A stretch of 64,000 bases of DNA from Poecilobothrus nobilitatus. Lineage: Eukaryota; Arthropoda; Insecta; Diptera; Dolichopodidae. The notes beneath the pieces were generated by a model. That model was not told where the DNA came from, did no database searches, and worked only from the letters and a program-made list of their open reading frames with translations. The stretch spans positions 166,792,438 through 166,856,437 of the forward strand of contig OX352773.1 in assembly GCA_947095535.1 (NCBI GenBank), given 5' to 3'. The position numbers and the translations under genes were made by a program. How positions within the stretch are numbered: position 1 is the stretch's first letter; each line of letters opens with the position of its first letter. Positions 20,142 to 55,060 of this stretch are shown here, piece by piece.

Positions 20142-20236
20142 CAAAGGGAAATTGTAATAATAATGATCAAATTTCAATTCCAAAAACTGGAAATGAAACA
20201 AATAATATAAGAACTACACCTATAGTAAATAATTAA
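20138..20236 (+). pseudogene. Frameshifted C-terminal tail of PY gene B
   Basis: Thirty-two codons open in a shifted frame read through NCNNNDQISIPKTGNE and then NNIRTTPIVNN before TAA. This resembles the Asn-rich end of PY gene A, which contains GIRINNTTIVTITP. The change falls after both PY motifs, so core function could survive. A sequencing error is also possible. Confidence 0.55.
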
Positions 20237-31335: not shown

Positions 31336-31447
31336 ATGTCATGGTATATGCTTTTTTTTATTTATTCAACATTTTTATTATCAATGTTATTATTGTGGCA
31401 TAGTTATTTTGGTGTTAAAAAATGGTTAAAAAGGATTCAATATATAA
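31336..31447 (+). CDS. Array exon 1: membrane-anchor first exon (partial gene)
   Basis: The ATG opens MSWYMLFFIYSTFLLSMLL, one hydrophobic segment, followed by WHSYFGVKKWLKRIQYI. It ends at a strong donor A|GTAAGT in phase 1 after 37 codons, and translation past the donor stops within two codons. The basic residues after the hydrophobic segment favour a cytosolic C-terminal tail. No downstream exon was found before the next member 1.5 kb away. The phase suits joining to a PY-motif exon like those at 10807 and 19861. Confidence 0.55.
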
Positions 31448-32905
31448 GTAAGTAATTTTTTTTGTTTTAAATATTTTTATATTTAAATTTTTAGATATTA
31501 TTATGTATTATTATTTGTATACTAAAAAAAAAAAAAACTATTAGACAGAATTTTAATTTGAATATTATAATAAAATACATTTTATTGATCGTTAACAGTT
31601 AATACAAAATATTTTCAAAAATCTTAAGAAAAAAAAAAGATAAGAGATTGTGCGAGGCATATTATAAAATGGATATACATATAGGTACAAAACATACAAA
31701 TGTATGAGTGAAAGTAGAAAAAATAAGGAATTCGTTTGAAATTGTAGACATTTATAATATGTTACTGTCTTTTAAAAAATATTGTGAAAGTGGAATAAAC
31801 ACTTTTAAATTATTTAAAAAGTGCAACAGGTGCACAAATAAAGAAAATAAGAAAAAATTGAAAAAAAATATTGCACTTGCGCATATACTCTGAAAACAAT
31901 ATAATATCGAAACCATAAACTACATAAATGTTTATGTAGTTTATGATCGAAACTATGTTTTTGTTTATCGTAATTTAAACGTTATTTTTCTTAAATTATT
32001 TTAAACCGTATAATTAACAAAATATATACTTAACTTTTGATAGAAAAAAATATTGAAATTTTTAAATAAATTATGAAAAAGAAAAATTTTATATTTATAT
32101 CTGTATGTACATTGTACATAATGTAAATATGTATATGTACTTACTTCATACCATTATTTTTGTGCAAAAATCGCTATAGATATATTTTTTAATTAATATG
32201 TTTAAAATTTATTTTATTAATGACCATTTGAATTAATTAATACATATTTAAAATAAAATGGTTTATTATAATAAAAATATTTATAAAAATTTTATTTAAT
32301 TATAAATTAGAAAAATCAATGCGTTTTTATTTTTTTTGATTGTGTTTATTTCTTTATAAAATACGATAACGATTATTTTACGATAAAATAATCTTATGAC
32401 AGCTTATTGCTATAAATATTTAAGAATAAATTTGACATTTGATAATTATTTTGACATAAAAATATCTTGTTTACTAAATTATTTTTGTATTTTCTTTCTT
32501 TGTTGTTTTTTTTTTTTTTTTGTCTTTTGAAGCTTTTAGTAGTTATAATAATTCTCTCATGTTTTGATGATTCAATTTTTGAAGTTTTACAATTTTTTTT
32601 TTGTTTATTTTCGTGAAGTTTTCAAACTTGATTTTCTGATTAGACTTTATAATTAGTTTGTGGCCTAAATGAAGTTTTATTTTTAGTTTAGTATTATTAA
32701 TACATATTAAATTTTCAAAATTAATTTTAAGTGACGAAATTTTGTTTTTTATAATTTTGGTACATAGTATATCTAATAATTAAATGTTAATTTTAAAGTG
32801 ATCAAATAAATTTCTTTTTCTTATTGTTATTGTTTTGTTGTTAAGAATTAAAAAATTAAAGATAAATAAAAAATACAAAAAAAAAAAATAAAAATAAAAA
32901 AAAAA

Positions 32906-33008
32906 ATGGACTGGTTTACAATTCTTATTATATGTATTATTTTATTTGTGGTATTCTCATGCTGCGGTTATACATGTCAAAAAAAAGAGCGTGGAGCAAT
33001 TTTTCAAA
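32906..33008 (+). CDS. Array exon 2: membrane-anchor first exon (partial gene)
   Basis: ATG opens MDWFTILIICIILFVVFS, then CCGYTCQKKERGAIFQ, and the exon ends at A|GTAAGT in phase 1 after 34 codons. The Cys pair after the membrane segment, with Lys/Arg and RGxI, resembles array exons at 52547 and 54928 (CRKRQIRGRI and CRKKQRRGQI). Juxtamembrane cysteines of this kind are often palmitoylated; that is inference. Confidence 0.6.
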
Positions 33009-35269
33009 GTAAGTAAATATCTACATAATTAATTAAAATTGTTTTTATAAAAATATTATTTAAATAACTAATGTTAAAATAACAGTTAATTAAGTTATTC
33101 TATACTTAAATATTTAAAATAATATGCATACACCATGAAAACATTGAAAACAAAAGCATAGTCATATTATAGGATATAATACTTGCATATGTATGTTACA
33201 TATCATAATTCATAGTTATTTTTAAATTGTATTGTTCATATTATTCTTTAGTTATTCACATTTAATTAAGGTTTTTTTTGTATTAATTTTGTTTTTATTG
33301 GATTATATATCACTTGTAAATTGTAACTAATAAAGTATGATCAAAAAGGTTATAAATTTTTTTTCATGATTATAGAATTGAATTTAGCAAATTTAAGTTT
33401 TTCTTAAAATTAAATTTTAATTAAGTAGTTACTAAGTAAAAGGTTTTTCAAAAAATATTTTTATTTGGAAAAATTAATATACCTACTTATATAACGTTAT
33501 AAATACTTATCATAGTCAGTTAATTAAATTTTGTAAGATAAAAAAAAGTTACAGGTACATACATACATAATTTTGATTTTTAATTATACTTTCCTAAATA
33601 ATGTATACTTAAGTATACTAGTTAAAAAAAGTAAAACACAATATAAAGCCTATGTATAACTGATACCGCATTAACGTTATACATATGTATTTGTAATATG
33701 TACATACTAATATAAAAATTTGATTGATCCTTTTAATAATACATATTTATTTTAGTTAGATTTAATGAAGATGATGTTTCGTTTTTTAATAAGATTAAGA
33801 TTATCATGCCTTATTTTATTTACTATGTTTGATTCTTTATATTAGTTTAGTTATTTACTAATTTTGGAAAATTTTATATTTAATTGTGATGTGATTCTGG
33901 GACAGGATGCGAGTTTATTGAATTTATGCCACTCTACTTTGTACTTTTTATATATTTATTTGCAATAACTAATAAGTATTTACTTAATTTTTCAATAATT
34001 AAAAAAAACTTTAAATCGAAGGTTTTTACAAAGTTAGAAATTAATTCAAATTTCTATAGTTAATAAAATTGTTTAACTGTCACAAAATTATTTGAATTTT
34101 TCTCAATATTATTTATGTACTTAACTGTTACTTATAATAATCTAATCCGAATAAATTTGTTCAGGAATCGTACAAATGTGTCTACAAAGTTCAGGAGTCG
34201 TACGCAAATTGCCAAGATAAACTATTTTCAAGTATCAAATTTAAGTAGTTAGTGCACTTCCTTAGTGCACCTTTTAGTCATAAAAATGTTAGATATTTTA
34301 AAAAGTAAAAACTTATTATAAGTAAGTATGTAAGTATTTTGGAAATGTACGTATAACTATTAACTATAAAGATATAACTACTTACTTAATGTGGAAATTT
34401 TATTGCAAAGAGCAAACAAATACTTAATCTACAGTTCAATTTCGTTATCCAAAAATATTTCCCAAGCAAATATTATTTTATTATTTTAGGTTATTCACGT
34501 GTCAGAGCATTCATTTTTAATTATGTAATTAGTTTATTTATGTTAGTTACTCAAAGGTTCACATTATCCATATTTCACTGTAATTATTTTACCAGAATAA
34601 GTAACTACTTATAATTTACAACTAAATATATTTACTCATAAGGTAAGTAAGAAAATAAGTACTTACTTAATTAAAATTTTTTTTTATAAGTACTTACTTA
34701 GATTACTCAGATTTTATTGTTTAATTCGTAATAAAATGATTCTAATGTATATGTAATTTAAATATTGTTTATTTTTTCAAAAAATTTAACTAAAATAAGT
34801 ATTTCAATTAAAAATTTTCCATAAGCAACTATTTATATATTCATTTTAAAAACTTTGTAATATAGGTAATACGAGAATATATTATGCATATTAAGTAGTT
34901 AAATTATAAAATTATATTTTGTAAAATACCAAGTAAAAACAAAATTAAGTACTTACATATAGAATTTTAAAATTTTGTGACTCATTTTTAAATGCTTATC
35001 GTTGTTGCATTGTTTGTTTTTAATTCTATAAAGTCATAAGTACTTATTAAAATTTATATAATTAACGACATTCTGATAGAATACAGTAGTTATATAAAAT
35101 TTTAATACATAGGGAAAAAATGTTTTTCTTTTTTAGCAAAAGAACAAGCATAAAGTAAGTATATATTTGAAATTAAGTAAGTATTTTAAATACTTAAGTA
35201 AGTAACTATACGATAATGTATTTTTAAAATGAGAAATCGTTCATTTCTACTTAAGTATATCTATTTTTT
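33009..35269. other. Putative intron/intergenic DNA rich in AAGTACTT motifs
   Basis: No coding exon was found. 34300-35220 has an unusual density of TAAGTA, AAGTACTTACTTA and related palindromic words. Otherwise A/T low complexity. Confidence 0.45.
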
Positions 35270-35274
35270 TTTAT

Positions 35275-36140
35275 TCCGTTTTGTTGAAAAGTTACATTAT
35301 GCCAATATGTATGGAAAATAACATCATTCAAATGACCACCACGACTTCTCCCTTCGTCCTGCTTTCTGTCAGCTCAAATTTTCATCACTTTTTCACATAA
35401 ATTTGGCTGTATTTCATCAATAGCATGTTCAATATTGATTTTTAATTGCTCAATTTTTGTTGGATTATCAGCATAAACTTGTGACTTAACATATCCCCAA
35501 AGAAAGAAATCACAAGGTGCTAAATCACACGATCTGGGTGGATAATTAAGTGGACCAATTCTTGAGATAATATCATCACCAAATTTTGTTTTCAATAAAT
35601 CTATTGTCAAGGTGGCTGTGTGACAGATGGCACCGTCTTGTTGAACCCACATATCTTCCAGATTATTCTCAACAACAGCAGGAAAATCATTTAACATTGT
35701 TCTGTATCGTTCTCCATTGACTGTTACTCTTCGACCATTTTCGTCAAAGAAATATGGTCCAATCACTCCACCAGCACGAATTGCACACCACACAGTGACT
35801 TTATCTGGATGATATTGTTTGAACAGTTTCGTGTGGATTTTCATCATTCCAAATTCTACAATTCTGATTGTTTACATAACCATTTAACCAAAAATGAGCT
35901 TCATCACTGAATAAAATTTTTCGATAAAAATGTTGAAATGAAATGAGCACTAATTTTGATAAAACAATTTAATAATTTCTAAACGTTGTTGAAGCGTGTA
36001 TCTTTTCATGATTAAATGGCATAGCCTACTGAACACAAATGATATAAATGTCTAAAAATAATACGCAGTGTTGCCATTATAACTATTTTAAATTGTATCA
36101 TTCCCCTTGTAAAACCCTTTACTTATGTGTATTGGCAAAT
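35275..36140 (-). mobile_element. Mariner-like element relic
   Basis: A transposase relic is flanked by moderately complex DNA on both sides. The ends were not delimited exactly: no clean inverted repeats were found, so the borders are approximate. Confidence 0.55.
35374..36010 (-). pseudogene. Broken mariner transposase, DD41D spacing
   Basis: The N-terminus at about 36009 reads MKRYTLQQRLEIIKLFYQN and is cut by a stop and deletion. Then SDEAHFWLNGYVNNQ (first catalytic Asp) appears in one frame, and the rest (VTVWCAIRAGGVIGPYFFDE, WVQQDGAICHTATL, YPPRSCDLAPCDFFLWGYV) in another. I counted 41 residues between the second and third catalytic Asp, the spacing of the DD41D group of the Tc1/mariner superfamily. 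The internal deletion and frameshift make it inactive. Confidence 0.8.
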
Positions 36141-36169
36141 AAATTTTCAAACGATAAGTATGTATATAT

Positions 36170-36500
36170 ATATACAGCTATGGTCAAGTAAATAGCACAA
36201 TTACTTTTTTTTTTTTTATTTTGATATATTTTTACAAATATTGATATTACATTGTAATATTTTTTGATTTTTAATTAGTAAATATACTGCCTTATCAGTT
36301 CCCAGTATAAAAAAAATGGTTCTTTTTAAAACTAGAAAAACAAACAGTAATTTCAATTTGATAAAACTTTTACCTACACAATGTGTTACTGATCTTCATA
36401 CAAAACGTATCAATATACAAAATGTTACTGACTTTCATACAAATTTTCATTTCACGTGTATATAACGACAGTTTTCTAATTAAGTGCACTGTTATATATC
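36170..36500 (+). repeat. Possible Tc1-type terminal relic
   Basis: 'CAGCTATGGTCAAGTAAATAG' near 36175 resembles the CAGT-xxGGTCAA start of some Tc1-like elements. Only the end-like stretch is recognisable and no transposase coding follows, so this is tentative. Confidence 0.25.
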
Positions 36501-36873
36501 TCTGCATATATATTTATGAGTAAATAAATTTTTTCTACGGGAACTAAGCTAGGGCTCTTCTAGTTTTCAAGATATTGGGACTTGAATAAAATTTAATTAT
36601 TTCTTTTTACCGTTTTCATAATTTTACATATTTAACCCTGTTTCTAGACTATATATTTATGAAAATTTTGTAAATTGTATTCAAAAGCTTAAGAAATCTA
36701 CTTTTAAACAAGTACCTATATTTAATTTTCTATCTTTTACAGTTTTAAAATTTTAACAATTTATTTTTGAAAAAAGCATAAGTATTTACGCCATGACGTA
36801 ACATGAAAAATAGATGTACTCATAAAGTATGTATGCAATGCAGTGATATATAAGTAGCATTGCATTTTCTTAG

Positions 36874-37036
36874 GAAACATCCTGCATATGTGGCTCTCAC
36901 GTTCACAGTAGAAAATTTTTGGATTCCAAAAAAAAAGAATGGAACCCCAACCACAAATTTAGTTTATAAGGAAGAGGAAATAAAATGTAAAGTAAAAAAT
37001 TGTATTCAAGAAGAACCGTGGAGAAAAACGGATTAA
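36874..37036 (+). CDS. Orphan exon-like open frame, unknown
   Basis: After a pyrimidine-rich acceptor (TTGCATTTTCTTAG) an open frame in phase 2 runs 53 codons to TAA. It includes KHPAYVALTFTVENFWIP, then NGTPTTNLVYKEEEIKCK and NCIQEEPWRKTD. Codon choice looks more coding-like than its surroundings. The phase does not match the phase-1 anchor exons and no upstream partner was found. It may be a terminal exon of an unseen gene or a transposon scrap. Confidence 0.3.
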
Positions 37037-37467
37037 ACATATTAAAATCTAGCAATTACTATATATACATATATGTATATATATATATATATTGCCATTA
37101 TTGAAACAAACAACTGATTAATAAATAATAACCATTAGCAATTTAATGATAGTATTGAATTATTATTATTATAATATAGAAGTTACATATTTTAAATAAG
37201 TTCTGCTGTAATTACACGTAAGTATAAATAAATAAATACTTTAAGTCGTAAAAAAATTAAAGCAACAAAAAAGAAAAAACTCAAAATAATTAATATAGAA
37301 ATAATTTATGTATATTATTGATAAGATATAATTTGATCTTATTATCATTTAATTAATATTTTATTTTTGGATTTTTTTTTTCTTTTTAATTTAATTATTA
37401 TAGTTATTTTAATTAAAAATTTAGTTACTTATTCACTTTACGAATATATATACATAATATTATAATT

Positions 37468-37588
37468 ATGGGGCTTGGAGTTGTACCGATTTTAGCAATG
37501 ATATTGTTATCATTATTTTTTTTATATTATATTATTGATTCATATATAAGATATAGAGTTAGAAATTTAACGAGATCAGCAATAACAG
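37468..37588 (+). CDS. Array exon 3: membrane-anchor first exon (partial gene)
   Basis: ATG opens MGLGVVPILAMILLSLFFLY, a long hydrophobic segment, followed by basic IRYRVRNLTRSAIT. It ends at G|GTTTGT in phase 1 after 40 codons. It lacks the cysteine cluster of several other members but shares size, topology, strand and phase. Confidence 0.55.
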
Positions 37589-37689
37589 GTTTGTACTTAC
37601 ATATATAAAAATTTACTTACTTAAACTTTTATTAAATAATATTTCGGAGATTGGGTTCGAGCATTATAGATTTGTCTTTATACTTAAGT

Positions 37690-37957
37690 AGTACCACAGA
37701 CTAAATAAAGTATACGTAGACGATCAGTTAAATTTTTAGTTTTTTTTTTTGGAGCCAGACCAAGCAGTTTAGAATATTTAAATTACAAAAATAAAAAATA
37801 CAAAAGAATATTCTATAAATTTTTATTTTTGCTATTTAAATATTCTAAAATATTTAGTCTGGCTCCAAAAAAAAATTTTCATTCTGGCTCCTATAAAATA
37901 CTTAAAATTTTTATATGAAACTGTTAGTCTGTATAGTCTTTAGTCTGTGGTAGTACA
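37690..37957. repeat. MITE-like nested inverted repeat
   Basis: The outer ends GTACCACAGACTAAA and TTTAGTCTGTGGTAGTAC are inverted. The inner pairs 'TTTTGGAGCCAGAC' and 'GTCTGGCTCCAAAA' are also inverted, flanking an A/T centre. About 270 bases, non-coding: a foldback or MITE in the region just after array exon 3. Confidence 0.65.
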
Positions 37958-39605
37958 TAACTATTTTTTGTTCTTAAGATTTTCTTTATACTATTTATAG
38001 GTATATGAATTAACTAATCTTAAAGAATAAAGAATTAATAACCTATTTAAGTAGTAATTGAATATTAATTATTTTATTAACTATAATTTTTATTTTGCAA
38101 ATAATTTAAAATTACGTATTAAATATATTAATAGTTTTTCTCTTTGTTTTTGTTTGTTTAATTAATCATCGTTATTAAGTTTACAGTAAGATATGATTGT
38201 ATATGTATATAGTCGTATATGTATTGTATATTATTTAGTTTTTTCTTTTTAAGTAATGGTACAGGTACATTTTGGTTTAACATTTCTGAGGTTACCAAAC
38301 GAATACGGTTTTTTTTTAATAGCACATTTCGAGACTTATTACAACAATACATAATTTTTGCGTTCCTTTTATAGAGTAAAATGTTCATTTCTATTTCCAA
38401 CTACACCAGCCTTTGAGAAAGAGTAAATAGGAGTAAATATGATTATGTTTAATTAGCGTCCCTTTTTGTCAACTACTCCCAACTACACTCAACTAAGTAC
38501 TCTTTTCGTGTACACAAACAATAATATAACTTAATTAACCATAACTTATTAAAAATAAGGTAAATACTTATTGGATCAACAACCGCATTTATTTATTTAT
38601 TTTTTTTTTAATTTTCTTTAACAAATTCCTAGTGACACATAAGTAGATATTTACTAATATATTTTCTACATAAATATATGTATATCTTCCCTTAGAAAAT
38701 TTTAACTTTCGAATTTTTTATTGGATTAAATAAAAGTTTACTATAAATATAATAACTGTACTTACTTATTATCTATAAATAATACATATTATATGTGTAC
38801 TATTGGATTATGTATATTATGTATATAAATATAAATATAGATAATACATAATACATAATACTTAATCATATAGTATATAGTCAATCCTTAATTCATTTAC
38901 CATTTACTTATAAGTACATAAAAAATAAAAGTCAATATCAAACATAATCAAACAAGTAACTGACCTAAATAACAACGTACGATATAATATAACGTCTGTC
39001 AAAATACGCGACAATGAGCATTTGAATTTTCAACGTTTTTTTTTACTGTCAAGGGAATTTATTTTGTTTTCCTTTGTTTTGTTTCTCATTTTGTATTGAT
39101 CTTTGACGCTGATTAGACGTTCAGTTTTTCAGTTAGTGCTTCAGCACTGAAAACATGAAAAGTGGTTATAATTACTATCAGTTTGAACTAAAAATAATTT
39201 TGTTCATGAAAATTATTGTAATACGACGATACTGCATTGATCAAATATTTTTTCATTTAAACTTGGAACTTTGGTTGCGAAATTTGAAATACTTAATTGG
39301 AATTCATATAACTAAAGAAAAGTTTATATTGTTTAAACTTTTTTTTATTCTTTCCATTTCGTATTTTACAACAACAAATATGGATCTTTAGTTAAAACTG
39401 ACTAAAAATTGAACGTGTAATTATCGCCTTTAGATGTCATATTGATATAAATTTCAAATTTTTATAGAAATGTGTAAAATTATTTAGTATTAAAAAAAGT
39501 ATTAAGTATCCTATAAAAATAAATAAATCTTTGTTTCTTCCATATTTTTCAATATAATAGGTACATATTGTAAAAACTGTATTCTTTAAATAAAAAATAA
39601 TATGT
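37958..39605. other. Putative intron/intergenic DNA
   Basis: A/T-rich with microsatellite-like ATACATAATACATAA text near 38790-38870. The short frames (38158-38400 on -, 39155-39391 on +) have no family cue. Confidence 0.4.
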
Positions 39606-39609
39606 AAAA

Positions 39610-39990
39610 AAAATATTTTTTAAAATATGCTTTTATCGAAAGCAAATTCGCCCCCTAAAAAGTAGAAAATAAAATTGATTGCAAAACTTTAGCTTTTTTG
39701 ACTGTTATAATATAAAAGTGAATTGCTAGTGCAAGCATTTTGGACTGTTATAATATAAAAGTAAATTGCTGGAATAAGGTTAAATAAAAATCTAGGAAAT
39801 TTGAGGTTCGTGTTTCTTTTTTATTCCAGCAATTTACTTTTATATTATAACAGTCCAAAATGCTTGCACTAGCAACTCACTTTTATATTATAACAGTCCA
39901 AAAAGCTAAAGTTTTGCAATCAATTTTATTTTCTACTTTTTAGGGGGCGAATTCGGTTTTGATAAAAGCATATGTATTTTAAAAATTATT
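39610..39990. repeat. Long near-perfect foldback, ~165-bp arms
   Basis: The left arm (about 39610-39777) and the right arm (about 39826-39990) are inverted copies with only a handful of mismatches, around a loop of ~48 bases. Shared landmarks are 'TTCGCCCCCTAAAAAGTAG', 'GATTGCAAAACTTTAGCTTT' and 'GCTAGTGCAAGCATTTTGG'. Within each arm a ~30-base unit containing 'GACTGTTATAATATAAAAG' occurs twice. If transcribed, it would form a long hairpin RNA. It could be a foldback/MITE transposon or an hpRNA source of siRNAs. Confidence 0.85.
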
Positions 39991-40444
39991 TTTTTTACTT
40001 ATTATTTTATTTTATACTTTTTAGTTTTAAATGAAACACATAATTTTAATTAAAAAAACAAAATTTAAAAATATGGGATATTTTTTATTCATACATACAT
40101 TAATTATTGTTTCTGATATAAAATACGTTTTATTTTACACCAAATGTTTAAGTAAATTAAGAGATGTTAAATCGATTCCATTACAGCAAGAGTAAAAATT
40201 TTTTATTCCAGTATGTAATTCATAAATAAAGAAAGTACCTCGAAGGGTAAAATATGTACCAAAATACTGTGATTATATAAATATTACAATCCAACAACAT
40301 AACTCGAATGAAAATGATATACATAAATGTACTTTACTGTATATTTCTATAGTACACTATTAGTAGTATATCGTATATTCAAACAAACATCAAACCTTGT
40401 ACACCTACCTAGTACCTACCTAATCGCTTAATAAGATCATGCAG

Positions 40445-40540
40445 TAAAAAATGTTGACAAATATCTTGATTTAAATTATAAACAAATGGAGCGGAACAAA
40501 ATAATTTAGGAAATTAGTTTAACATAATATTATGTGCATC
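40445..40540 (+). repeat. Truncated copy of the 41-kb repeat unit
   Basis: 'AAAAATGTTGACAAATATCTTG', 'TAAACAAATG' and 'CAAAATAATTTAG' match the start of the two longer units at about 41070 and 41475. It is interrupted by the SINE at 40541. Confidence 0.55.
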
Positions 40541-40790
40541 CAGCCATTGGTGCAGTGGTTGACGCACCGCTTCTCATTCATAAGGGAATGAGAGGTCTCG
40601 GGTTCAATTCCCGGCTGGGTACAATAATTATAATATAAAAAAAAAAATATTCATATATCGCAATATGTAAATACTTTATAATATATCATTATATCACGTA
40701 CACATTCCTACCAGGAAACAAGGGTTATAGCTACCTGGCACATTTATGTACCACGGTACCTGAATATAAATAAATAAATAAATATTATGT
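40541..40790 (+). mobile_element. tRNA-derived SINE with near-complete cloverleaf head
   Basis: The head pairs CCAGCC with GGCTGG like an acceptor stem. It has a D-arm/A box (TGGTGCAGTGGTTGACGCACC) and a T arm/B box (GGGTTCAATTCCCG). The anticodon hairpin is abnormal: CTCATTC pairs with GAATGAG around a six-base loop, so it is not a standard tRNA. A body and an AAATAAATAAATA tail follow to about 40790, marking a SINE. Confidence 0.75.
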
Positions 40791-41069
40791 ACATACGTAC
40801 GTACATATTTACAAACGTAGTTTTAATTTTTTGTGTTGACAAAATTTTGTTTGTAAATCATAATGCGTAATGCGCAAAAGCATAATTTTGATCTTTACTT
40901 TTTATATTCTTTTCTATGTACAAAAATAATATTATGTATGTATGTAGTTTGAATTTGGCAATTGGAATTATTTTGAATAAAATTTTATTTGTATATCTAT
41001 ATACACAATATACATAATAAATGTTCCTAAATAAAACACATAAAACATTAATTTTTAACGACATGCATA

Positions 41070-41410
41070 TTCAATATGCAATAAAGAATGTTGACAACAA
41101 ATATTCTGATTTAAATCCTAAACAAATGTTTTAAAACAAAATAATTTAGCAACATAAAAATATTGTACCTATATATTTTGTGTTTTGCTAAATCCTAATA
41201 CAAAACAAATGTACACATCAAGATTGATTGAACTAAATTATTATAGGAGGAAAGATCAAATAATATGTGTATATTATACATAAAATTTTATTAAAAAAAT
41301 GTTGATGAATACAGTTAACAAAAAAAAAAAAATGTACGTACACGAATTGGATTTGAACCAAATCACTCTTACTTTCAAAACCTGTACACTCTCCTCTGCA
41401 CTATACAACA
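41070..41410 (-). repeat. SINE-containing repeat unit, first long copy
   Basis: A unit running from 'ATTCAATATGCAATAAAGAAT' to an A-run, then a minus-strand tRNA-like head: B box GGTTCAAATCC and A box TAGTGCAGAGGAGAG when reverse-complemented. The next unit, at 41475, repeats it in the same orientation. Confidence 0.65.
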
Positions 41411-41474
41411 CTTAAATATTTAATGAACATATTACGAACATAAAATCAGATAAAATCTTAATTTTTAACCATGT

Positions 41475-41850
41475 ATATTCAATATGCGTTAAAGAATGTT
41501 GACAGCAAATATTTTGATTTAAATACTAAACAAATGTTGTAAACAAAATAACTTAGCAACATACATAAAAATATTGTATGTATGGATTGTGTTTTGCTAA
41601 TTATGCTAATACAAAACACCAGGAAAGATCAAAAATATAATGTGTATGTTTGTATGCATGAATAAGGGATAAAAATGTAAGTTTTAAATTGATATATACA
41701 AAAATGTATACATATTTTACTCAAAAAATGTTGATGAATAGATAGATAAAAAAAAAAAAATGTTGCATGTGAACTGGATTCGAACAACATGATGCCCACT
41801 TTTGAAACCTGTACACTATCCTCTGCACCATACTACACTTACATGTTGCT
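41475..41850 (-). repeat. SINE-containing repeat unit, second long copy
   Basis: It matches 41070-41410 in order: 'AAAGAATGTTGACAGCAAAT', 'CTAAACAAATGTTG', 'TTGTGTTTTGCTAA', 'AAAAAATGTTGATGAATAG', an A-run, then a minus-strand tRNA-like head with B box GTTCGAATCC. The direct tandem arrangement shows a local duplication or repeated insertion. Confidence 0.65.
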
Positions 41851-44800: not shown

Positions 44801-44953
44801 GTTTAAAAATTCTTTAGAATAACATCTAAGTATTTTTTTTTTTTATTATTAAAAAAAAATTTTTTTCTTTCAAAATTTAATAAATTTTTACTTGCGCATA
44901 AATATTATTTTCGTGGAAGTTACAATTTCAAAGAAAAGTTTTTTAAATAGAAA
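41851..44953. other. Putative intron/intergenic DNA
   Basis: A/T-rich with AAATAAAT and ATGTATG microsatellites. One copy of the dispersed core ('CCTGATTTTACAACCAGC') is at about 44010. The frame at 43921-44154 runs through this repeat and is not a gene. Confidence 0.4.
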
Positions 44954-45083
44954 ATGGATTTATTAGATTGTTTTAGTTGCTGTGATTTATGCTGTGTGGC
45001 AATGGCAGTTGGTGCATGTTTTTGTTGTGCACAATCTGTGAAAAATGATTCAGCTCATCAGGGACAAATAATAAACCCACCAC
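44954..45083 (+). CDS. Array exon 4: cysteine-rich membrane-anchor first exon (partial gene)
   Basis: ATG opens MDLLDCFSCCDLCCVAMAVG, followed by ACFCCAQSVKNDSAHQ and an end in INPP. It ends at C|GTAAGT in phase 1 after 43 codons. Eight cysteines fall within the first 25 residues, in pairs on both sides of a short hydrophobic core (VAMAVGA). Such a segment could be a heavily acylated membrane anchor rather than a classical helix. No downstream exon is visible before 52.5 kb. Confidence 0.6.
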
Positions 45084-47105
45084 GTAAGTTGTTTTAATAC
45101 AAACAAAAATTGAAAATTTTTTAACAAAAATTTAATTGTCAAAAAAAAAACAACATTTGACATTTTCTTAGTTTAATTTTTTCTTTCAATAGTGACAAAC
45201 AAAATAAAAGCTGTAATATTAATTTTTATTTACATACTTATATAAAAATTTTTTATTTTTATCTTATTTAAATTTTAATTACGTTGTTTAAATTCATTAT
45301 CAGCTATTAATTATATAGTTCTTTGATAAATGAAATAGCATTGCCCAATATTAATAATTTTTATGCTGAATAATAACTGAAAATGCTTTTTAGCGCATTT
45401 TTTATAAAAAAAAATTGTAAAATTTACTTTTTAGTTTCGATCGTTTGTGTGTCCGTCTGTCGCTTGTCTACCTGTTTCTAAAATTTCTACGCCTTAGTTT
45501 TAAGAAATTTAAGCTTTAACAATGGTTAAGTTTCTTAATTAAAACAATTATGTAATGTTGTAAAACAACTTTTTTATGTAGTGTCATCTATTACGCATTT
45601 GCAGCCTCTTAAAATTTTAAAAGCTATGTCAAATACTTATGTATATCTCAAATCCTGCTTATCATTTTTTGAGTTTAACTACCGCAAACAACAGGACATT
45701 GTTTTAGCTTTATGGATCAATATCAAAAGTATACCTACAAATTTTTGCATTTAGTATTTAAATTTACCGTTATATGAAGATAACGCTTTTCCTCCTTCAT
45801 ACATACGACATGTTTTGAATTATAACATTGATTTGAGAGATGAAAGATTTTTTAGAATTAAGTATAAGTTACCTCAGAAATTTTTTTTTGTAGCTATTAG
45901 GACTCAAAAATTGAAACCTGTATGATACACACTGTACAAATTTCTTTAAAGTAAAACGTAAATCTTAAAGTTTTGACCTATAATTATGCATGGTTAATAG
46001 CTTTTCTTAATTAAGTATAACTATATAGGGTTTCCTGAAAATAGAAGAAAGTGTCTGTTTTTAGTACAAGTTTTTGTTATTATAAAATTCTAAGAAAATT
46101 TAAAAATTCTAAACTATTTTTATTTCTTTTGGAAAATATGGTCGTTTTTAGAAGACAACTTTGGTTTACATTTTGCCTAGTTCTTCTTTCCATTCCTACC
46201 TATAAGGAGTAATAAGATATCCACTAAGTTTATTTTTATTTATATTAGAATTAGACAAAGCTTTAGCTTTTCAAATTTAACTCAGTATAGTTTCACAAAG
46301 CCATTTGTTACTGGGCTCGGTTGCTATTGTTAATCTATTTCTAATACCAGAATTATTTATTTATGTATACTTATTTTTAAATGTCATATTACCATATAAA
46401 AATGGCAACTACCTATTAAATATTATGACCTAATCGAGCTTGGAATCTGAAACTTTTCGATTGAAACGGTTTAAATCGGAAACTTTTCGGTTGAAAGGCC
46501 ACTTATTAAATACTAATACGCCATTGGTCAAAATAAATATACGAATTACTTATAAAATTCAATAATGTTTAATAATTAATTTAAGTATGTATGTATTTAC
46601 AGTTTAATAAAAAATTAAGGATTTTAATGTTTAAATAAAACGCTACCCTTATATTATATTTTTATTTATACATATATGTATGTATAACAAAAATTATACA
46701 AACTTAAATAAAAAAATTAAAATTTACAATTTTTATACCTATTACCTACCTATGTTTAAACAAGTTTCCATTTTAATTAAATTATTTATTCACAATATTT
46801 TAGCCACAATTGTATACATATGTATTTTGCATATTCATTTAAACTAGTTAAAAACTTTTAAAACAAATAGTTATGATTCAGTTCAATAAATAATAGTATA
46901 GGCATCACTAAACAATAGCATTTAATGACTAATAAGTAAGTATATAAAAACACCGCAACCCGTATATTTTAGTTTTACTTTTTTTTAAATTTGATTCATA
47001 TCAAAATTATATTTTTTTTAATTAAATTTTTAATTTAAATTTTTACATTAAAAAAAAAATTAGAAAATTATTTCCTCCATTCTATTGAACAATAAAGACA
47101 ATGTG
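45084..47105. other. Putative intron/intergenic DNA
   Basis: A/T-rich. Old repeat debris near 45430-45930 ('CCGTCTGTCGCTTGTCTACC') recalls the GGAC-type repeats. No exon was recognised. Confidence 0.4.
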
Positions 47106-47109
47106 AGAA

Positions 47110-47390
47110 TGTATCAGAATCCTTCCAGAATCCGAACCCCATGAACTGATTTTGTCCAGATGCAATCCCCGCCTTCCTTTCGTAATAAGTAACCTACTAT
47201 ATAATTTTTATCAAAATAGTTTTATTAGTTTTTGAGTTATCGGACGAATGGACGGACGGACATCGTTAAATCGACTCAGGAGGTGATCCTGAATATATGT
47301 ACATGTCCATATCTAACTCGCTTCCTTTTGGTGGTTACAAACACCATATTAAAGTTAATAGACTCTATACTTTAGGTGTAGGGTATAATA
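47110..47390 (+). repeat. 3' end of the composite GGACGGAC repeat
   Basis: It closely matches 15235-15510: 'CAGAATCCGAACCCCATGAA', 'AGTAACCTACTATATAA', 'TTTTTGAGTTATCGGACGAA', 'GGAGGTGATCCTGA', 'ACTCGCTTCCTTTTGGTGG' and 'TTTAGGTGTAGGGTATAA'. The internal tandem units are missing here. Confidence 0.7.
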
Positions 47391-48839
47391 AAATTAAAAT
47401 AAATTACTTTTAGTATGTTTGAGAAACTATCAAAGGCTTGTTATAAAATTATATCGCCACTATACCCACTTTTACCGTAATCCATATTTTATTCGTAATT
47501 TATATCTAGTCCATATTTTGTTTATATATACTTTCCTTGACCAAGAAGCTAATACATTTGTACTAAATGTTGGCACATATAACTTAATATTTGATTATAA
47601 AAGGGAGGTCGTGGTGTATAGTATGTAAAGTTTCACACAATCATGGAGGATTCATGCTAATTTTACTGCTAAAGGGTCTTTCGTTAATTCCCTACTCTCG
47701 CAAAAAAATAGGAGTTCTTATTTTCAATTGTAACTTATACGAAAAAAGGAAATTAAACCTAGTAGCGTAAACTACGACATAAACATACCTTGTAGTTTAC
47801 ATGATATAAACATATACTTAATTGCAGTTAGTCACCATAAAAGTAAAATATATTAGTTATTTAATTTGTTAACGAATGTTAAATAATCATATAGCACAAT
47901 CATGAAATTGATAATAGTTCTAAAGAACACAATCTTATCTTTATATTAATTTTTTTTTGTTTTTCTTGTTTTTTTTTTTTTTGGAAGTTAATTGTTTATT
48001 TTAGTTTTTTTACCCTTTAAATTAATTTGCAATATTAATGATAAGATAACTGATAAGATAAGTTTTGAAAATAAATACATATATATAATTAGTTATACCT
48101 AGTCATACTTATTTATAGTGTTAAATATTTAAAATTACGTTTGTGACAAAATAAAATGTATACTACTTATATACTATAATATTTACTACTAAAATTTTTA
48201 GATTTTTCTGTTTGAAACCTAATTAAGATAAATCATATAAGTATATAAATGTTTATAGTACCACTTTTTGATTTTTAATCTAATTGCTTAGTTTTGTTGC
48301 ATTAATTATAGTGATGACTATAAGGTGACTAAAATAAGGAAGTTAAATTAAAAAGTTGCTTTTATTTTTTAAAATATTTTTGATTAATTTAAAACATTTA
48401 TTTAATTTATTTAATTTAATTTTTTAAAGAAATGCTAAGAAACATGACTGTTTACCTACATAATACCTACATTAGATTAGGTTATATTGTTATTTATGTA
48501 ATATAAATAACACTGCGGCCTTTTGATGTAGATCTATTGTGCTCCCCCTGTTAATACGTGCTGTGAATTTTTCCTCCACTTATAATACTTCTGTCAGCCC
48601 TACTGCCTCTAAGAAAATAAAGATTTGAATATAGGGTATATTGCTTAAAGTACTTCTACTTCATCTTCAGCAATATGCTTTGAGGTGACACTGTTTACCT
48701 ATTCATAACAAAATGATTATACAAGATGAAAAACATAAACATTTTCTTTAATACCGAGGATAGCACAAGCTAAAATTGAATAGCTTTGTTAATGATTTAG
48801 TTAAACATTAAGATTTTGCTTTATAGATATCTCGTAGGG
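47391..48839. other. Putative intron/intergenic DNA
   Basis: No convincing gene. The frame at 47419-47628 lacks a recognisable motif. GC-richer text at 48510-48620 ('CACTGCGGCCTTTTGATG') is probably transposon debris. Confidence 0.4.
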
Positions 48840-48844
48840 ATTAA

Positions 48845-49345
48845 CACCTGTTCCAATGAAATAAAACAGTTAATGTCTCCACTCAAAGTTTTCCAACTAG
48901 AAACAAGGAGCACAACACAAGCTCATCCCTACCACGTATAGAGTTATCAGATGGCGAAATGCAGCTTATGGAAATTTGTTTGTCATACGCACGTCTCGTT
49001 TATGGAACCATATACCATCGCATGTGTTCTCTAAAGTTGGTAATCCATATGTACGTACGATTTACTTAAATTTAAGAAGAACAGTAACATCTTTCTTCAA
49101 AATGTGCCTCCAAATTTTCCTACCTATACCCCATAATCTAAATTTCCTAGTTCTATTTTCCCAATTATCCTTCCCACATTCCTATCCCCAAAACCAAACT
49201 GTTCATTTGTATTAAAGGTTTCATCCTCAAGTTTGGTTTTAAAAGGGGGGTGGTTTTGGTTGGTTAAAATCCAACACTACCGTGAGGAAGCACGTGAAGT
49301 TTCTCTTGGTGACTTTCAAATTTTTACCAACCCTCGTAAAAAAAA
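48845..49345 (+). mobile_element. 5'-truncated non-LTR retrotransposon
   Basis: In two frames the sequence reads TRSTTQAHPYHV, then VIRWRNAAYGNLFVIRTSRLWNHIPSHVFS. This matches the C-terminal end of Jockey/R1-type LINE ORF2 proteins, in which (F/Y)xxRTSRLWNxLP is a hallmark. A 3' untranslated part ('AGTTTGGTTTTAAAAGGGGGG') and an A-rich tail follow. The frameshift and truncation make it dead. The 3' part is shared with 18525-18735. Confidence 0.8.
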
Positions 49346-50847
49346 ACATAAAAAAAAAAAAACAACGTATTGGTAGTAACTAAATAATAATTATAGTAGA
49401 AGGTACATAATATAATATAAGTATATAATATAAATAATTAGGAAATAAATGGATTTTTTTGTAATAAAATTTTAAATATTCAGGGAAACCTGTTTAAGTT
49501 GGACACTTGCGGTTGAAAAATGTTTGGTTAACATTTACAGGTGACCAACTTGTAAGAAAATTTTTATTTATTTTTTTTTTTCATGGAAATGGAAAGTTTT
49601 TTTTGGTTAATGTAAAGAAATGTCAGCAAAATAATTAATTATATAGGTATTATAATATGCATTTTCTTTCATAATCAAAATTGATTTAAATTTAAGGATT
49701 TTATTTTTCCAAACTTAAAAAATTCAAAAAATTAAACAAAACAAAATTTTAATAAAAAACATACATCCAAATAAGATATGCCTGTATAATCAGTATTCAA
49801 TGCTAATTGCTAATTAAATTAAATTCGGGGAATATGATATGAGTAACTGACATTGATTGACAAAGCTACGTAACAAAAAGTAACAAAACAATAACCAAAA
49901 TTTTAATGCTTTTATAATAAAAAATTTTTGTTATGGTCAACTTTTATTGGTGTTTTACTTACAAAAAGTTCATTAACATAAGGAAAGAAATGATCCAAGT
50001 TGTAAGATGTACTAGTACAACATAAACAGGTATTTTGAATCATTTTTATATATGAAATTTTCTTCGTTTTATATTCAAGCATAAATTTTCATTAGTGTCC
50101 TTCTTATAAGAGTGGCTAACATCAGAGGTTTCATTGTATACTGCGTAATTCCAAAAGGTTGTTGTGCCAATAATTGGAGTTATTTTGACTAATTTTAAAG
50201 ATATAAGTATTTGGATATTTTATTTCACCTTTTACCAAACTTATTTAACAAAACATAAAATTTTATAAAATTTTCTAAAAATTAATTGTTTTAAAAAACT
50301 ACCAACTTTTTTATATTTTTTTTATATATGTAGACCTAACGATCTATATGTACGAGTATTTTGTTTAGATATTTTCATCAATATTTGATCAAACTTTTAC
50401 TCTTTTTTTTTTATCATGTTTAAGTTTCAGCAATTATTACTTAAAATTCAACATTATATGTTACTTTTTAATTTAGGTTAATGAATATTAATATTGAATT
50501 TTATTCCAATGATTGTAGGGGATCACTTGCCTAATTATTGCAGTAAATTTCAACAAAAAATTCCTTCGAGTGTTTTTAGATTGATTGATTACATACTGTT
50601 CAAAAAATGACATGATAAAATTTTGTATAAAAAATAAAATTAAATAAGTATATCCTATATATATTATATAAATTATAAATATATTTAAGAAATATCCTAA
50701 AATTGACTTGGCCAACTAAAATTATCTTGTTCATCATAAAGTGTATTATAATTTTTTAATTTCTTATCAAGTTATGCAGTATAATAAAATATTTGTATTT
50801 TGTTTATAAAATAAAATTTAAATTAAAACATTTTAAAAGAATTTTTA
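49346..50847. other. Putative intron/intergenic DNA
   Basis: A/T-rich. The minus-strand frame at 50488-50715 was not accepted. No RNA gene or repeat family recognised. Confidence 0.4.
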
Positions 50848-50929
50848 ATGAATTTTAGTAACAATTTATATTTTACCGGAATATTTATAATTATTATAAT
50901 GATTATTTTTGTAACATCATTTATTTTTA
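50848..50929 (+). CDS. Possible additional membrane-anchor first exon
   Basis: ATG opens MNFSNNLYFTGIFIIIIMII and continues hydrophobically through FVTSFIF to a candidate donor A|GTAAAT in phase 1 after 27 codons. Size, strand, phase and position suit the array. Against it: there is no basic or cysteine patch and the composition is almost pure A/T. About 33 bases downstream, TTTTTTTTTTGTCCAAATAG precedes a 27-base, phase-1-in, phase-1-out segment (to 50988). The gap is unusually short for an intron. Confidence 0.3.
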
Positions 50930-51112
50930 GTAAATTTTACATTTTTTTTTTGTCCAAATAGATAAAATTGGGCATTATGTATTAAAAGGTTATAGATGTA
51001 TGTTATATAAAAATAAAAAAATATATAAAAAATAGATATTTTTCTTATTACTTACATATAACTATTTATAAATAATTGTTTTAATTGCAGGCTTTTTATT
51101 TTAAAAAAGTAC

Positions 51113-51193
51113 ATGTATGTATTTGTATTAATCATATGCTGCACTGTTTTAGATGTTGCATTGGCTGCAAGAATACATTTAATTTTCTATTAA
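51113..51193 (+). CDS. Possible micro-ORF with signal-like sequence
   Basis: MYVFVLIICCTVLDVALAAR, then six further codons and TAA. It looks like a short hydrophobic leader with a small-residue end (ALAA), but it is only 26 codons and has no partner exon. It is included because it lies inside the anchor array. Confidence 0.15.
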   Translation: MYVFVLIICCTVLDVALAARIHLIFY

Positions 51194-52014
51194 CTTATAT
51201 AAAAATTTGAAGAGCACTTTAGTGATATACTTATAATTTAAATAACAAGAAAAAAAAATACTTTAAATTTAATATAGATAATAAAAATAACCCGAAGTTA
51301 TTTCTGCCTTTCAAAGAATCGATTTGAAATACTAAAAATATTAGTTATATATGTATTTAAGTAAAAAATATTTGTGTACATTCGAAACGCGTTTAAAATT
51401 TCCCTCTGTCAATTATTTATATACTTAGGTATATTTACTTAATACTTTTCCAGCTAAATATTTTGAGAAATGATTTTAAACCAAGTCTGAAGAATCACTT
51501 TTGAGATATGACCATGTTTAATGTCTCCGTTATGTCCGCAACATTTTCTGTCTTTTTTTTAACACAAATGTATTTTTTTATATTTTATTTCATTTTTCAT
51601 TTCCTGTGGTTAAAATTTTTCCCATTCATGTATATATATTGCATTCAATATGTTATCAAAAATTAATTACTTTACTGAAAATTAATTTACTGAACCATCC
51701 TTGTGGAGGCTCTTAAACAAAAAAAAAAAAAAAAACGTGTCGAATTCAAGATAATGTTCGTTCAACATGTATTCAATATACTTAAGCAGATATTTAGGTT
51801 TTTAAACTTAAATAAATTGTGATATTTTAAATTCCCTTAAACACTATTACCGGGTACCACGAGTACATAATTGATGCTTGAAAATGTTAAGATATCTTTA
51901 GTACCTAAAGATATTAATTAATAGAAAGTTTCTATATAATGTTTGTATGTATAGAAATATCGAATATTTATTAAATGATGATATAATCAAAATAAATAAA
52001 ATAAATAATTTTTT

Positions 52015-52195
52015 TAATGCATTTCTCTGTCACATAACTCTGGACAGGAAAATACACAGCCTTTCGTGTTCAGGCATGGCTGTAAATGTCGTAAGGGGGA
52101 ATAACTCTTACGACATATGTGAGATTCGAATCCACACTTCCTCGATGTTTACAGCGTGTTTTATACGCTCTTACCCACTAGGCCACCGGGGCCCC
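52015..52195 (-). mobile_element. tRNA-derived SINE, third copy
   Basis: It has the same family order on the minus strand as 2198-2390: the body 'AGGCATGGCTGTAAATGTCG' (plus-strand text), the B box reverse complement 'GATTCGAATCC', and the head 'CACTAGGCCACCGGGGCCCC'. It is moderately diverged. Confidence 0.75.
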
Positions 52196-52546
52196 AATTA
52201 AAATTTAATTTAGATTAATGAATCATTTGTTTAAATGAGATCATAGCTAAATACCTAAACAAAATTTATATGTTTTAAAAATAAGTAAATCTATAAATAT
52301 ACATTTTAAATTTTTTTTTTTTTGTAAAATTAAAAACTCCTATAATTGACATGATCAACTAAATTTTAATCTCAATTTTTTTTTTTATCACTTATTTACT
52401 TACTTTTCTTATCAGACAATTTATAATTTTGCAATTTAATTTTTTAATAAAAATTAGATCCGTAATTTTTAGTTCTTTTTATATTTTAATTATATTTGAC
52501 GTTAAATTAATTCTATATAGTTAATTTAAAAACAAAAAAAAGAACC

Positions 52547-52679
52547 ATGAGTAATTCTTACGAAGTTGAAGCTGTAATTTATACAATTATTTTGCCAATT
52601 GTTTTTTTAATAACATGCATTACAACATGCTGTTTAATATGTCGAAAAAGACAAATACGAGGTCGAATTTTATTTGCAG
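52547..52679 (+). CDS. Array exon 5: membrane-anchor first exon (partial gene)
   Basis: ATG opens MSNSYEVEAVIYTIILPIVF, continuing LITCITTCCLICRKRQIRGR and ILFA. It ends at G|GTTAGA in phase 1 after 44 codons. It is clearly paralogous to the exon at 54928: same length, MS-x-x-Y start, LITC-x-x-CC-x-(I/L)CRK and RG-x-I. The pattern is a short polar N-terminus, one membrane segment, juxtamembrane cysteines and a basic cytosolic patch. Conservation of the protein pattern between the two copies supports real coding function. Confidence 0.7.
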
Positions 52680-52838
52680 GTTAGAAAAAAAAAAATTGTT
52701 TTTTAATTTTTTATTAAATTTAAAAAAAAAAATTGTGTTTTTTTTTTGGAATTTTTGTTTTAATTACTTAGGACAAAAAATAGAGTGTGAATAAAGAAAT
52801 ACATAAGGATATTTTTTTTACTTTTTATTTTTTTAGAA

Positions 52839-52872
52839 GGGCCCTCGATGGCGTAGTGGTTAAGAGTGGTTA
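52839..52872 (+). mobile_element. SINE head fragment
   Basis: 'GGGCCCTCGATGGCGTAGTGG' followed by 'TTAAGAG' is the A-box end of the 2198-type SINE. The copy breaks off after about 35 bases. It lies just downstream of array exon 5. Confidence 0.5.
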
Positions 52873-54927
52873 AAATCAATACACGAAAAGATTAAATTAT
52901 TTAATTATAATATTATATTAAATAAAGATTATTCATTCATTCTTATAATTTTTATTTATTAAAAAAAAACAGTTTGGTCTAAAATAATGGAATTGTTGTT
53001 ATATATTATTTTAATTGAAGTATAGTTACTTATTTAATTTAGTTTTAATCAATAAATGCGTAAAAAGTAATAACAATAAATTAAATATTTAATATTTTTA
53101 AGTGTTGAATACAGGACAATAACTTTTTTTAATTACAAAAAAGTTTTAAATAAAATAAAAAAAAAATTGAAATATAAAAAGGTGATTAGAAAATTCGTGC
53201 CGAAAAGTATGCAAAAATTTTGTTTAATAAGAAACTTCTGATATACTATAAGAAAAACCAATAATAGCCTTAATAGCCTAATATTTGAGTAATATTGTAT
53301 TATCCTATGTGAGTAAAATAAAAATTCTGTAAATAAATAAAATTATGTACATGCTACTCGTATATACATAATATATAATTTTCGTATAGTTGTATCTGTC
53401 GAATTTTATATGGTAACTATAGCATAGTGCTGCCTAAATACATAAATAAGTACATAATTTTTTTTATTTATTTATTTTTTTTTCTAAATACCTATAGTTA
53501 TTAGTTAGTTATTTTAATAACTAATATAAAATTCATAATATCTGACAGTCTCTTTTAAAAACTATTTTACTTTTGGTTTCGCGATAAAAATTAAACTTAA
53601 GTCAATTAATTTATTAACGGAGAATAAAGTTTATTTCATCATGATGATTTTTTGTTGTCAAAATTATTACATATTTGTAGAACAGCTGATTTTGAAATTT
53701 CGTTTGTTTATGTTTGTTCATTATTTGAAACATAAATATGAAAAATGAAAATATAAATATCAAAACAGAACAACAGATTATATTCGCAATAGGAACCTGA
53801 AGAGGATAAACATTTTATTTTATGGAGTTTATTAATTTTGAAATAATTAAATTATTCTAATTCGGTCTTTTAAACCATTTGTTTGAAAAGTTTAAAATTA
53901 AGTATGTTGTTTTTGCAATTTTCTGATTTGCCGAGACTGCTAGACAGTTTTATATTCGAACGGAATGAAAAATCAGTTGTTTGTCAAAAAAGTTAAAAAT
54001 TAAATTAAATTATTATTTTTATCTTGTAAATGGACCTTATAAATTATTTAGTTATATTTTAAACTGTGATGAAATTTAGTGAAGACACAAACCATATAAT
54101 TTTGACGTTTTCTTCGATTACTTCATTATATTGTGAATTTTTTAAAATTCAAGACAAAAATTAAAGAAAAACCATCTACTTATATTAAAAAAAAAACACT
54201 TTAATTGTACATAAAAGATGATGAAGAAAAGGATGAAAATCTTTATTTCGCTTTTGTTTTTTAAAAGGTCTAAGAAAAAATTTATATAAGTTATCAGGCT
54301 AATTAAATAAAATAAATGTTATTATGGTAACATTGCTTATTATATATCATAATTTCTTTGAAAATTTTGCCTCAGTCACAAATAAACAAATTTTTCATTT
54401 CCGACACCAAAACTTTTAGTTTTTAACTCTATTTCAGGAATCGAAATTGATATTTTTTTTTTTAGTTGAATTTTATTTAATATTTTTAATATATTATGAT
54501 GTTTTTGGTATGATAACTTTTTTTTTTTTAACTCAAAACAAAGTTATATTATAGTTAAGTACTTAAGTATTTAAAGAATCAAACTTTTTAAAATAAATAT
54601 CTACTTAGTACTGTCATCAAACTTTTTTGTCGTTTACTGTTCTATTTGTAATTTTTAGCTTTTAACGTGATGAAATATCTTAAAATTATTATGATTAATA
54701 AATTTTTTTTTTTTAAATATAAGTGTATAAGAAAAACTAATTAACTTTTTGTTTTTATCATTTAATTTTCTTATCATACAATTATAATAAATAAATTGCA
54801 ATAATTTTGGGAAAAGATCTTTGTTCTCTATTTCAGTCATATTTGTATTTTAAGTGTAAATTACGTTAATTAAATTTTGTTATAAATTTTTTATGTATTT
54901 TAAAATTGTATTTAAAAAAAAAAAAAT
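52873..54927. other. Putative intron/intergenic DNA
   Basis: A/T-rich. No exon, RNA gene or clear repeat was recognised. The minus-strand frame at 54655-54840 is not convincing. Confidence 0.4.
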
Positions 54928-55060
54928 ATGAGTGATACTTACAAAGGACCTTTAATTATTATTATAGTTACAATTATTTTATCATTTATTTTGTTAATAA
55001 CATGTACAATGTGTTGTATTTTATGCCGAAAAAAACAAAGACGAGGTCAAATTATAGCAG
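54928..55060 (+). CDS. Array exon 6: membrane-anchor first exon (partial gene)
   Basis: ATG opens MSDTYKGPLIIIIVTIILSF, continuing ILLITCTMCCILCRKKQRRG and QIIA. It ends at G|GTTAAC in phase 1 after 44 codons. It is the closest relative of the exon at 52547, with exactly the same length. It is the last array member in the window and no PY-motif exon follows in the remaining 9 kb, so its 3' partner must be more distant or missing. Confidence 0.7.

Follow-up and report, generated by a model that had tools for sequence, protein, structure and literature searches.

The genome assembly of the fly Poecilobothrus nobilitatus (944 Mb in 84 contigs) carries on contig C2 an array of at least 26 short exons, each encoding a single hydrophobic membrane anchor. 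All of them lie on the + strand and end at a GT in phase 1, and together they occupy about 310 kb (C2:166,823,773-167,133,010; 31-341 kb in the numbering used here). The upstream end of this array, six exons, falls within a stretch of 64,000 nucleotides (C2:166,792,438-166,856,437, hereafter the window), which is AT-rich, with about 18% to 30% GC per 2 kb. The open frames, their common strand and phase, their clustering and the paralogy of several members are features of the DNA itself. We tentatively interpret the locus as a cluster of alternative first exons in a protocadherin-like layout, whose constant exon or exons were not located, a reading to which we give somewhat less than an even chance. 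The first-pass annotation of the window had described at least six anchor first exons without a nearby 3´ exon. The array exists and this layout was right; six members were too few, and the locus proves far larger than the window.

The analysis covered the window and the 280 kb (200 + 40 + 40 kb) that follow it on C2, 344 kb in total. Coordinates above 64,000 continue the window numbering (C2 = 166,792,437 + x), and anchors are labelled by their approximate position in kb (a52 starts at 52547, a55 at 54928, a276 at 275804 and a340 at 340252). A strict blind scan combined a synonymous-codon score, trained on three genes of the window described below (genes 1 and 2 and an NYN gene), with the demand for an ATG, a hydrophobic 19-mer and a donor scoring at least 3 in any phase. 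At a score of at least 3 it returned 20 rows on the + strand, including one nested duplicate (298345 inside 298204), and hence 19 distinct candidates, of which 18 have phase 1 and the remaining one phase 0, versus none on the - strand. Twelve order-3 Markov controls gave 0, 0, 0, 3, 2, 2, 0, 0, 0, 0, 1 and 0 candidates, with no more than one per sequence in phase 1. At a score of at least 8, 16 candidates were retained on the + strand, 15 in phase 1. Tandem variable 5´ exons on one strand and a single splice phase at exon ends are thus both found at this locus. The weaker members of the list of 26 were added by eye, as coding segments or by paralogy, and the blind counts refer to the strict scan only. 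Beyond the window its members start at 70377, 88977, 143928, 147465, 188467, 198751, 237530, 253944, 275804, 278894, 281532, 284305, 286173, 290507, 298204, 304336 (start codon uncertain), 310106, 313108, 324496 and 340252. Three more anchors were left off the list, namely 219835 (phase 0), 264878 (GC at the donor position) and 307444 (no donor).

All six exons reported previously in the window are present, each with an ATG, a single hydrophobic segment, 34-44 codons in total and a phase-1 GT, and the observation of six phase-1 anchor frames is confirmed. On the + strand they comprise 31336..31447 (37 codons, donor GTAAGT), 32906..33008 (34 codons, GTAAGT), 37468..37588 (40 codons, GTTTGT), 44954..45083 (43 codons, Cys-rich, GTAAGT) and the paralogous exons 52547..52679 (44 codons, GTTAGA) and 54928..55060 (44 codons, weak donor GTTAAC). 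The blind scan at a score of at least 3 recovered three of them (37468, 44954 and 52547), 54928 being lost because of its weak donor (score 0.8). The proteins of 52547 and 54928 are 50% identical over 44 amino acids (expectation value, E, 1.7e-12). Exon 32906, with a fair donor (3.1), scores poorly in synonymous codon use (-5.0) and weakly resembles 54928 (E 8e-4) and 70377 (E 0.003); by eye, 52547, 54928 and 32906 all end near an RG-x-I pattern. The weakest member is 31336, whose protein matches none of the other anchors and which taken alone could be of chance origin (hydrophobicity 1.73, donor 1.6, whole-codon score -18.1, synonymous score positive at 6.2). Directly after anchor 37468 lies an inverted repeat (37742-37875, 84% over 136 nt), which resembles a small mobile element.

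The encoded anchors fall into two classes. The first eight (31-89 kb) have 34-62 codons with 1-23 residues ahead of the hydrophobic core, and 14 of the other 18 have 40-128 residues there, the remaining four (147465, 188467, 198751 and 304336) having 1-28. Each anchor contains 0-4 N-glycosylation sequons. Of the 26 anchors, 24 have a C-terminal flank of net positive charge and 21 an N-terminal flank whose net charge is zero or negative; from these charges an N-out, C-in topology is likely. No Pfam model, and so no cadherin or immunoglobulin (Ig) ectodomain, scored over its cut-off in nine proteins (eight of the 26 anchors, and 70377 joined to the frame at 91,900 discussed below), and an Rfam search gave no match. 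No sequence match marks the anchors as adhesion proteins. Protein searches with seven candidates and with one candidate found no relatives elsewhere, a result of little weight in a database that is seemingly insect-poor. Searches of the genome returned, for a55, only itself and a52; for a281, itself and a276, followed by matches with E of 0.04 or worse, including a279 at 0.14; and for a340, itself and then a match with E 6. A junction pattern searched in the genome matched exactly at a single place (a290) and with one mismatch at two more; the reversed control pattern gave 2. One may speculate on recognition or immune functions for an outer part that changes fast.

Several anchors are evidently related to each other. 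Protein comparison gives three clear pairs, a276/a281 (E 4e-26), a284/a286 (E 8e-20) and a52/a55 (E 2e-12), and a weaker one, a298/a307 (E 4e-7); a290 and a310 match in exon DNA over 189 nt (E 2e-29). Crude Nei-Gojobori ratios of nonsynonymous to synonymous substitution (dN/dS) are 0.83 for a52/a55, 1.33 for a276/a281, 0.90 for a284/a286, 0.99 for a290/a310, 0.72 for a298/a307 and 0.87 for a276/a279; they show no strong constraint and are rough owing to codon bias. If every anchor had a private last exon, related pairs would be expected to retain that exon. The exon DNA of a52/a55, a276/a281, a284/a286 and a290/a310 is alike, and downstream these pairs share nothing or a single piece of 34-54 nt; in the control, pieces of at least 40 nt occurred in 4 of 21 unrelated pairs. 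The pair a276/a281 also matches upstream, over 378 nt. Four further pairs (a276/a279, a279/a281, a298/a307 and a304/a307) match nowhere downstream and hardly or not at all in exon DNA, and are therefore little informative.

The sequence at the exon ends has the appearance of splice donors. Among the 26 hexamers GTATGT occurs 12 times, GTAAGT four times and GTGAGT twice, the other eight being singles, a donor-like variation. The coding score falls past the donor in 12 of 13 anchors tested, the exception being a307, which is without a donor. Upstream of the exons, AAGCTTT is present at 100-600 bp from 13 of 29 starts, compared with a mean of 2.6 and a maximum of 9 in 2000 random draws; as the motif was selected after a k-mer survey, this enrichment is an optimistic figure. 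For the 26 listed exons only, the count is 10, and the reverse orientation occurs at 7 of the 29 starts. GATA sites seemed abundant by eye and were rejected, there being 1.39 versus 1.43 WGATAR per 500 bp, that is, no enrichment.

A partner for the donors was sought throughout the downstream sequence. The search for internal phase-1 exons gave none at 31-92 kb and merely anchor pieces at 92-344 kb. There are 303 phase-1 terminal frames of at least 30 codons on the + strand beyond 31 kb, and the top scorers are again anchor pieces. The best of the others (91,900-92,027, +, whole-codon score 8.5) reads GSYIPPDTPPSHNDSTISENNKAFLATDYLQPINALANISII and then a stop after the G of the junction; further + strand frames of this kind start at 319,014 (8.4) and 310,770 (7.2), and a weak candidate lies at 36909..37036 (+, 41 codons, no PY motif, score 7.1, at the level of the other strand). 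Since the - strand control contains a terminal frame scoring 8.8, no + strand candidate for a tail rises above chance. The 91,900 frame has no PY motif either, and a genome search with it returned itself only.

Two predicted genes upstream of the array and on the same strand, here called gene 1 and gene 2, have terminal exons with PPxY- and LPSY-type motifs that accept phase 1, as had been noted before. The earlier remark that nothing among or after the anchors reads as a PPxY/LPSY exon holds for the whole of 31-344 kb: PPxY occurs 8 times on the + strand and 10 times on the - strand, nowhere followed in frame by LPxY, and no array member has a PPxY plus LPSY tail behind its one transmembrane (TM) segment. 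LPSYE-type motifs on the + strand are confined to genes 1 and 2, and an LPTYE on the - strand (264,388) lies within a 40-codon frame. Within the 944-Mb assembly, and at the sensitivity of the search, the PY tail of gene 1 and that of gene 2 match significantly only each other; a match on C1 was rejected (E 0.94, retroelement-like by eye). The suggestion of the first-pass annotation that distal exons encoding PPxY and then LPSYE might provide the anchors with a ubiquitin-ligase adaptor tail is accordingly not supported, with none found down to 344 kb and no third significant relative of the known tails in the genome. The one close pair of motifs, an LPLY (45764) and a PPSY (45791, ending at 45802), was discarded as being in reversed order and inside a dispersed repeat. 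This repeat (45700-45920), in which both motifs are in frame, has copies of about 70% identity at 248, 302 and 327 kb and a further copy near 13 kb on the other strand.

We infer from the arrangement of the exons that they may be used as follows. Each exon would contribute its own ATG, an N-terminal region that is either short or up to 128 residues long, a TM helix and a basic stretch, the N-terminal region probably residing outside the cell and the basic stretch inside. Each would probably have its own promoter, and each anchor transcript would be spliced at the phase-1 donor to one or more constant cytoplasmic exons downstream. The choice of promoter would then set the outer part and the anchor, the inner part being constant. 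The constant exon would lie beyond 344 kb, or else be one of the weak candidates at 36,909 and 91,900.

A number of results weigh against such a cluster. No constant exon was found to 344 kb beyond chance level, and the 91,900 frame has a poor acceptor, scores -11.1 in synonymous codon use and was missed by another scan. A stop occurs within five codons after the donor in 15 of the 26 frames, a much larger share than at random donors (97/353, 27%, and 87/332, 26%). The local alignment of a52 and a55 extends about 80 nt beyond the donor, in T-rich sequence. Finally, a298 and a304 are alike downstream too (73 nt at 84%, 136 nt at 72% and 94 nt at 73%), besides an upstream match of 107 nt, and in one of the downstream pieces they share a possible acceptor, TTTNCAG, its CAG standing directly before TAATTTAAGG; joining there in phase 1 would yield Val-Ile-stop for either anchor. 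Such downstream pieces are what the main rival explanation draws on, according to which the locus is a tandem family of two-exon genes, each with a private last exon a few kb downstream consisting of a few codons and the 3´ untranslated region, too short and hence invisible to a coding scan. This explanation, also favoured by the tandem paralogy of the members and by the private tails of genes 1 and 2, is doubtful in our view and still a serious possibility. The acceptor of a298/a304 is found at no other anchor, for which reason a general micro-tail was rejected; their downstream match may be just a duplicated intron, and the four other related pairs lack downstream matches. The first-pass annotation had put two alternatives side by side, a distal tail common to the anchors and a tandem family whose introns are very long. 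The four pairs lean towards the shared tail, and the excess of early stops together with the a298/a304 match leans the other way.

The same excess of early stops is consistent with unspliced small genes whose frame is complete at the stop just past the apparent donor, and common frame endings (Ala-Gly-stop in both a52 and a55, Gly-Gly-Met-stop in both a284 and a286) agree with this. We nevertheless regard it as unlikely, as the other 11 frames run on past the donor, for up to 62 codons in a304, the codons following the conserved G vary among GTATGT, GTAAGT and GTGAGT in a manner that is donor-like and not peptide-like, and the coding score drops there. Still less probable is a common distal PY tail, for which the array would supply interchangeable anchors of an adaptor of the Nedd4 type. 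Genes 1 and 2, whose PY tails accept phase 1 and which lie on the array's strand close to its upstream end, and the N-out, C-in charge pattern of most anchors, like that of Commissureless (Comm), speak for this idea; the missing ordered PPxY-LPxY pair, the lack of a third significant relative of either tail and the location of Comm itself on contig C8 speak against it. Chance hydrophobic translation of AT-rich DNA, already unlikely as an account of the whole array, is hardly credible. It would fit a loose scan of the window alone, with 16 candidates on the + strand and 6 on the -, so that single members are unsafe on their own, as well as 31336, which has little beyond its frame to support it, and the crude dN/dS near 1 in several pairs; but it does not fit the 19 distinct strict-scan candidates against none on the other strand, or pair E values of 2e-12 to 4e-26.

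Loci that combine many alternative exons with a common part are familiar from Drosophila, where mod(mdg4), lola and Gr39a are examples. In mod(mdg4) and lola it is the 3´ part that varies, whereas the present array has its putative variable part at the 5´ end, and the first exons of Gr genes encode multi-pass receptors, whereas the array encodes one-pass anchors. Clustered first-exon loci are, to our knowledge, rare, and the best known of them, protocadherins and sDscam, generate cell-surface diversity. Vertebrate clustered protocadherins (see also PMC4835542) share with the array first exons on the same strand, apparently with their own starts, a single phase and joining to constant exons, which for the array is presumed. 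Their variable exons encode large cadherin ectodomains, in contrast to minimal anchors with 1-128 residues in front, and their constant exons are known, while that of the array was not found. The sDscam genes of chelicerates, arthropods as well, resemble the array in their tandem 5´ variable units; there every unit has a promoter in front of it, and the cassettes consist of two or four exons and encode Ig domains, whereas the array has single exons without Ig (PMC4835542). The likeness to Commissureless, a short one-pass protein (PMC12101832), extends to the PPxY and LPSY motifs, which genes 1 and 2 carry as Comm does; it is limited by the Comm hits being on C8, by genes 1 and 2 scoring below the cut-off and by the absence of a PY tail from the array.

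A further step would be to consider the locus an independent insect counterpart of the protocadherin arrangement, with the entire outer part and anchor of a minimal one-pass protein as the variable unit. At least 26 promoters, spread across 310 kb, would then select which fast-changing N-out anchor is combined with one or two constant cytoplasmic tails; we think this possible and rather doubtful. Should there be no tail downstream, the anchors might even acquire the PY tails of gene 1 and gene 2 by joining in trans. No such insect locus was found in the literature, as judged from the openings of abstracts, which is a weak test of novelty in print. Should the cluster be real, this layout can arise for membrane tethering itself, without a recognised ectodomain, and the role of the fast-changing outer peptides would be the next question. 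As a plain tandem family it would still be a one-pass cluster of at least 26 members without a Pfam name, and one easily overlooked by gene prediction, because the first exons are short and their partners unseen.

Genes 1 and 2 are predicted to encode proteins with a PPxY and LPSY tail behind one TM segment. Gene 1 (10197..11288, +) comprises exons 10197-10256 (TM), 10354-10456 and 10807-11288 (PY tail with PPPQY and LPSYE), and gene 2 (19213..20141, +) exons 19213-19272 (TM), 19391-19466 and 19861-20141 (PY tail with PPPNY and LPSYE). Membership of the Comm family (PF15957) was rejected, gene 2 reaching 11.4 bits at a cut-off of 27 and gene 1 also staying below it; Comm scores over its cut-off at six genomic places, each of them on C8. 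A frame of 32 codons that looks coding (20138-20233, +, score 19.0) starts at the stop of gene 2 in another frame; a change of frame, or an error in the sequence, may let gene 2 run on into it. The NYN gene (22029-24424, -) has an NYN ribonuclease domain and a long exon of 418 codons; its piece 22029-22331 matches RNase_Zc3h12a with 68.1 bits (cut-off 23).

Remnants of mobile and repeated DNA are scattered over the region. A 165-codon open frame (35374-35871, -) is by eye mariner transposase-like, with more copies at 174-175 kb and 195 kb, and two frames at 3941-4606 (-) are by eye similar to Tc1-type transposases. Taken with the Comm exons elsewhere in the assembly, these transposase-like frames are in keeping with an insect genome, probably a fly's. 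GC-rich repeats that seem, by eye, to be derived from tRNA genes occur at 2191, 40531, 52111 and other places across the 344 kb, and a fold-back of two mutually reverse-complementary stretches was seen by eye at 39669-39930. Near-identical blocks around AAAAGCTTTTTGTTCTT at 305069 and 306237, 1.2 kb apart and upstream of 307444, constitute a small tandem duplication.

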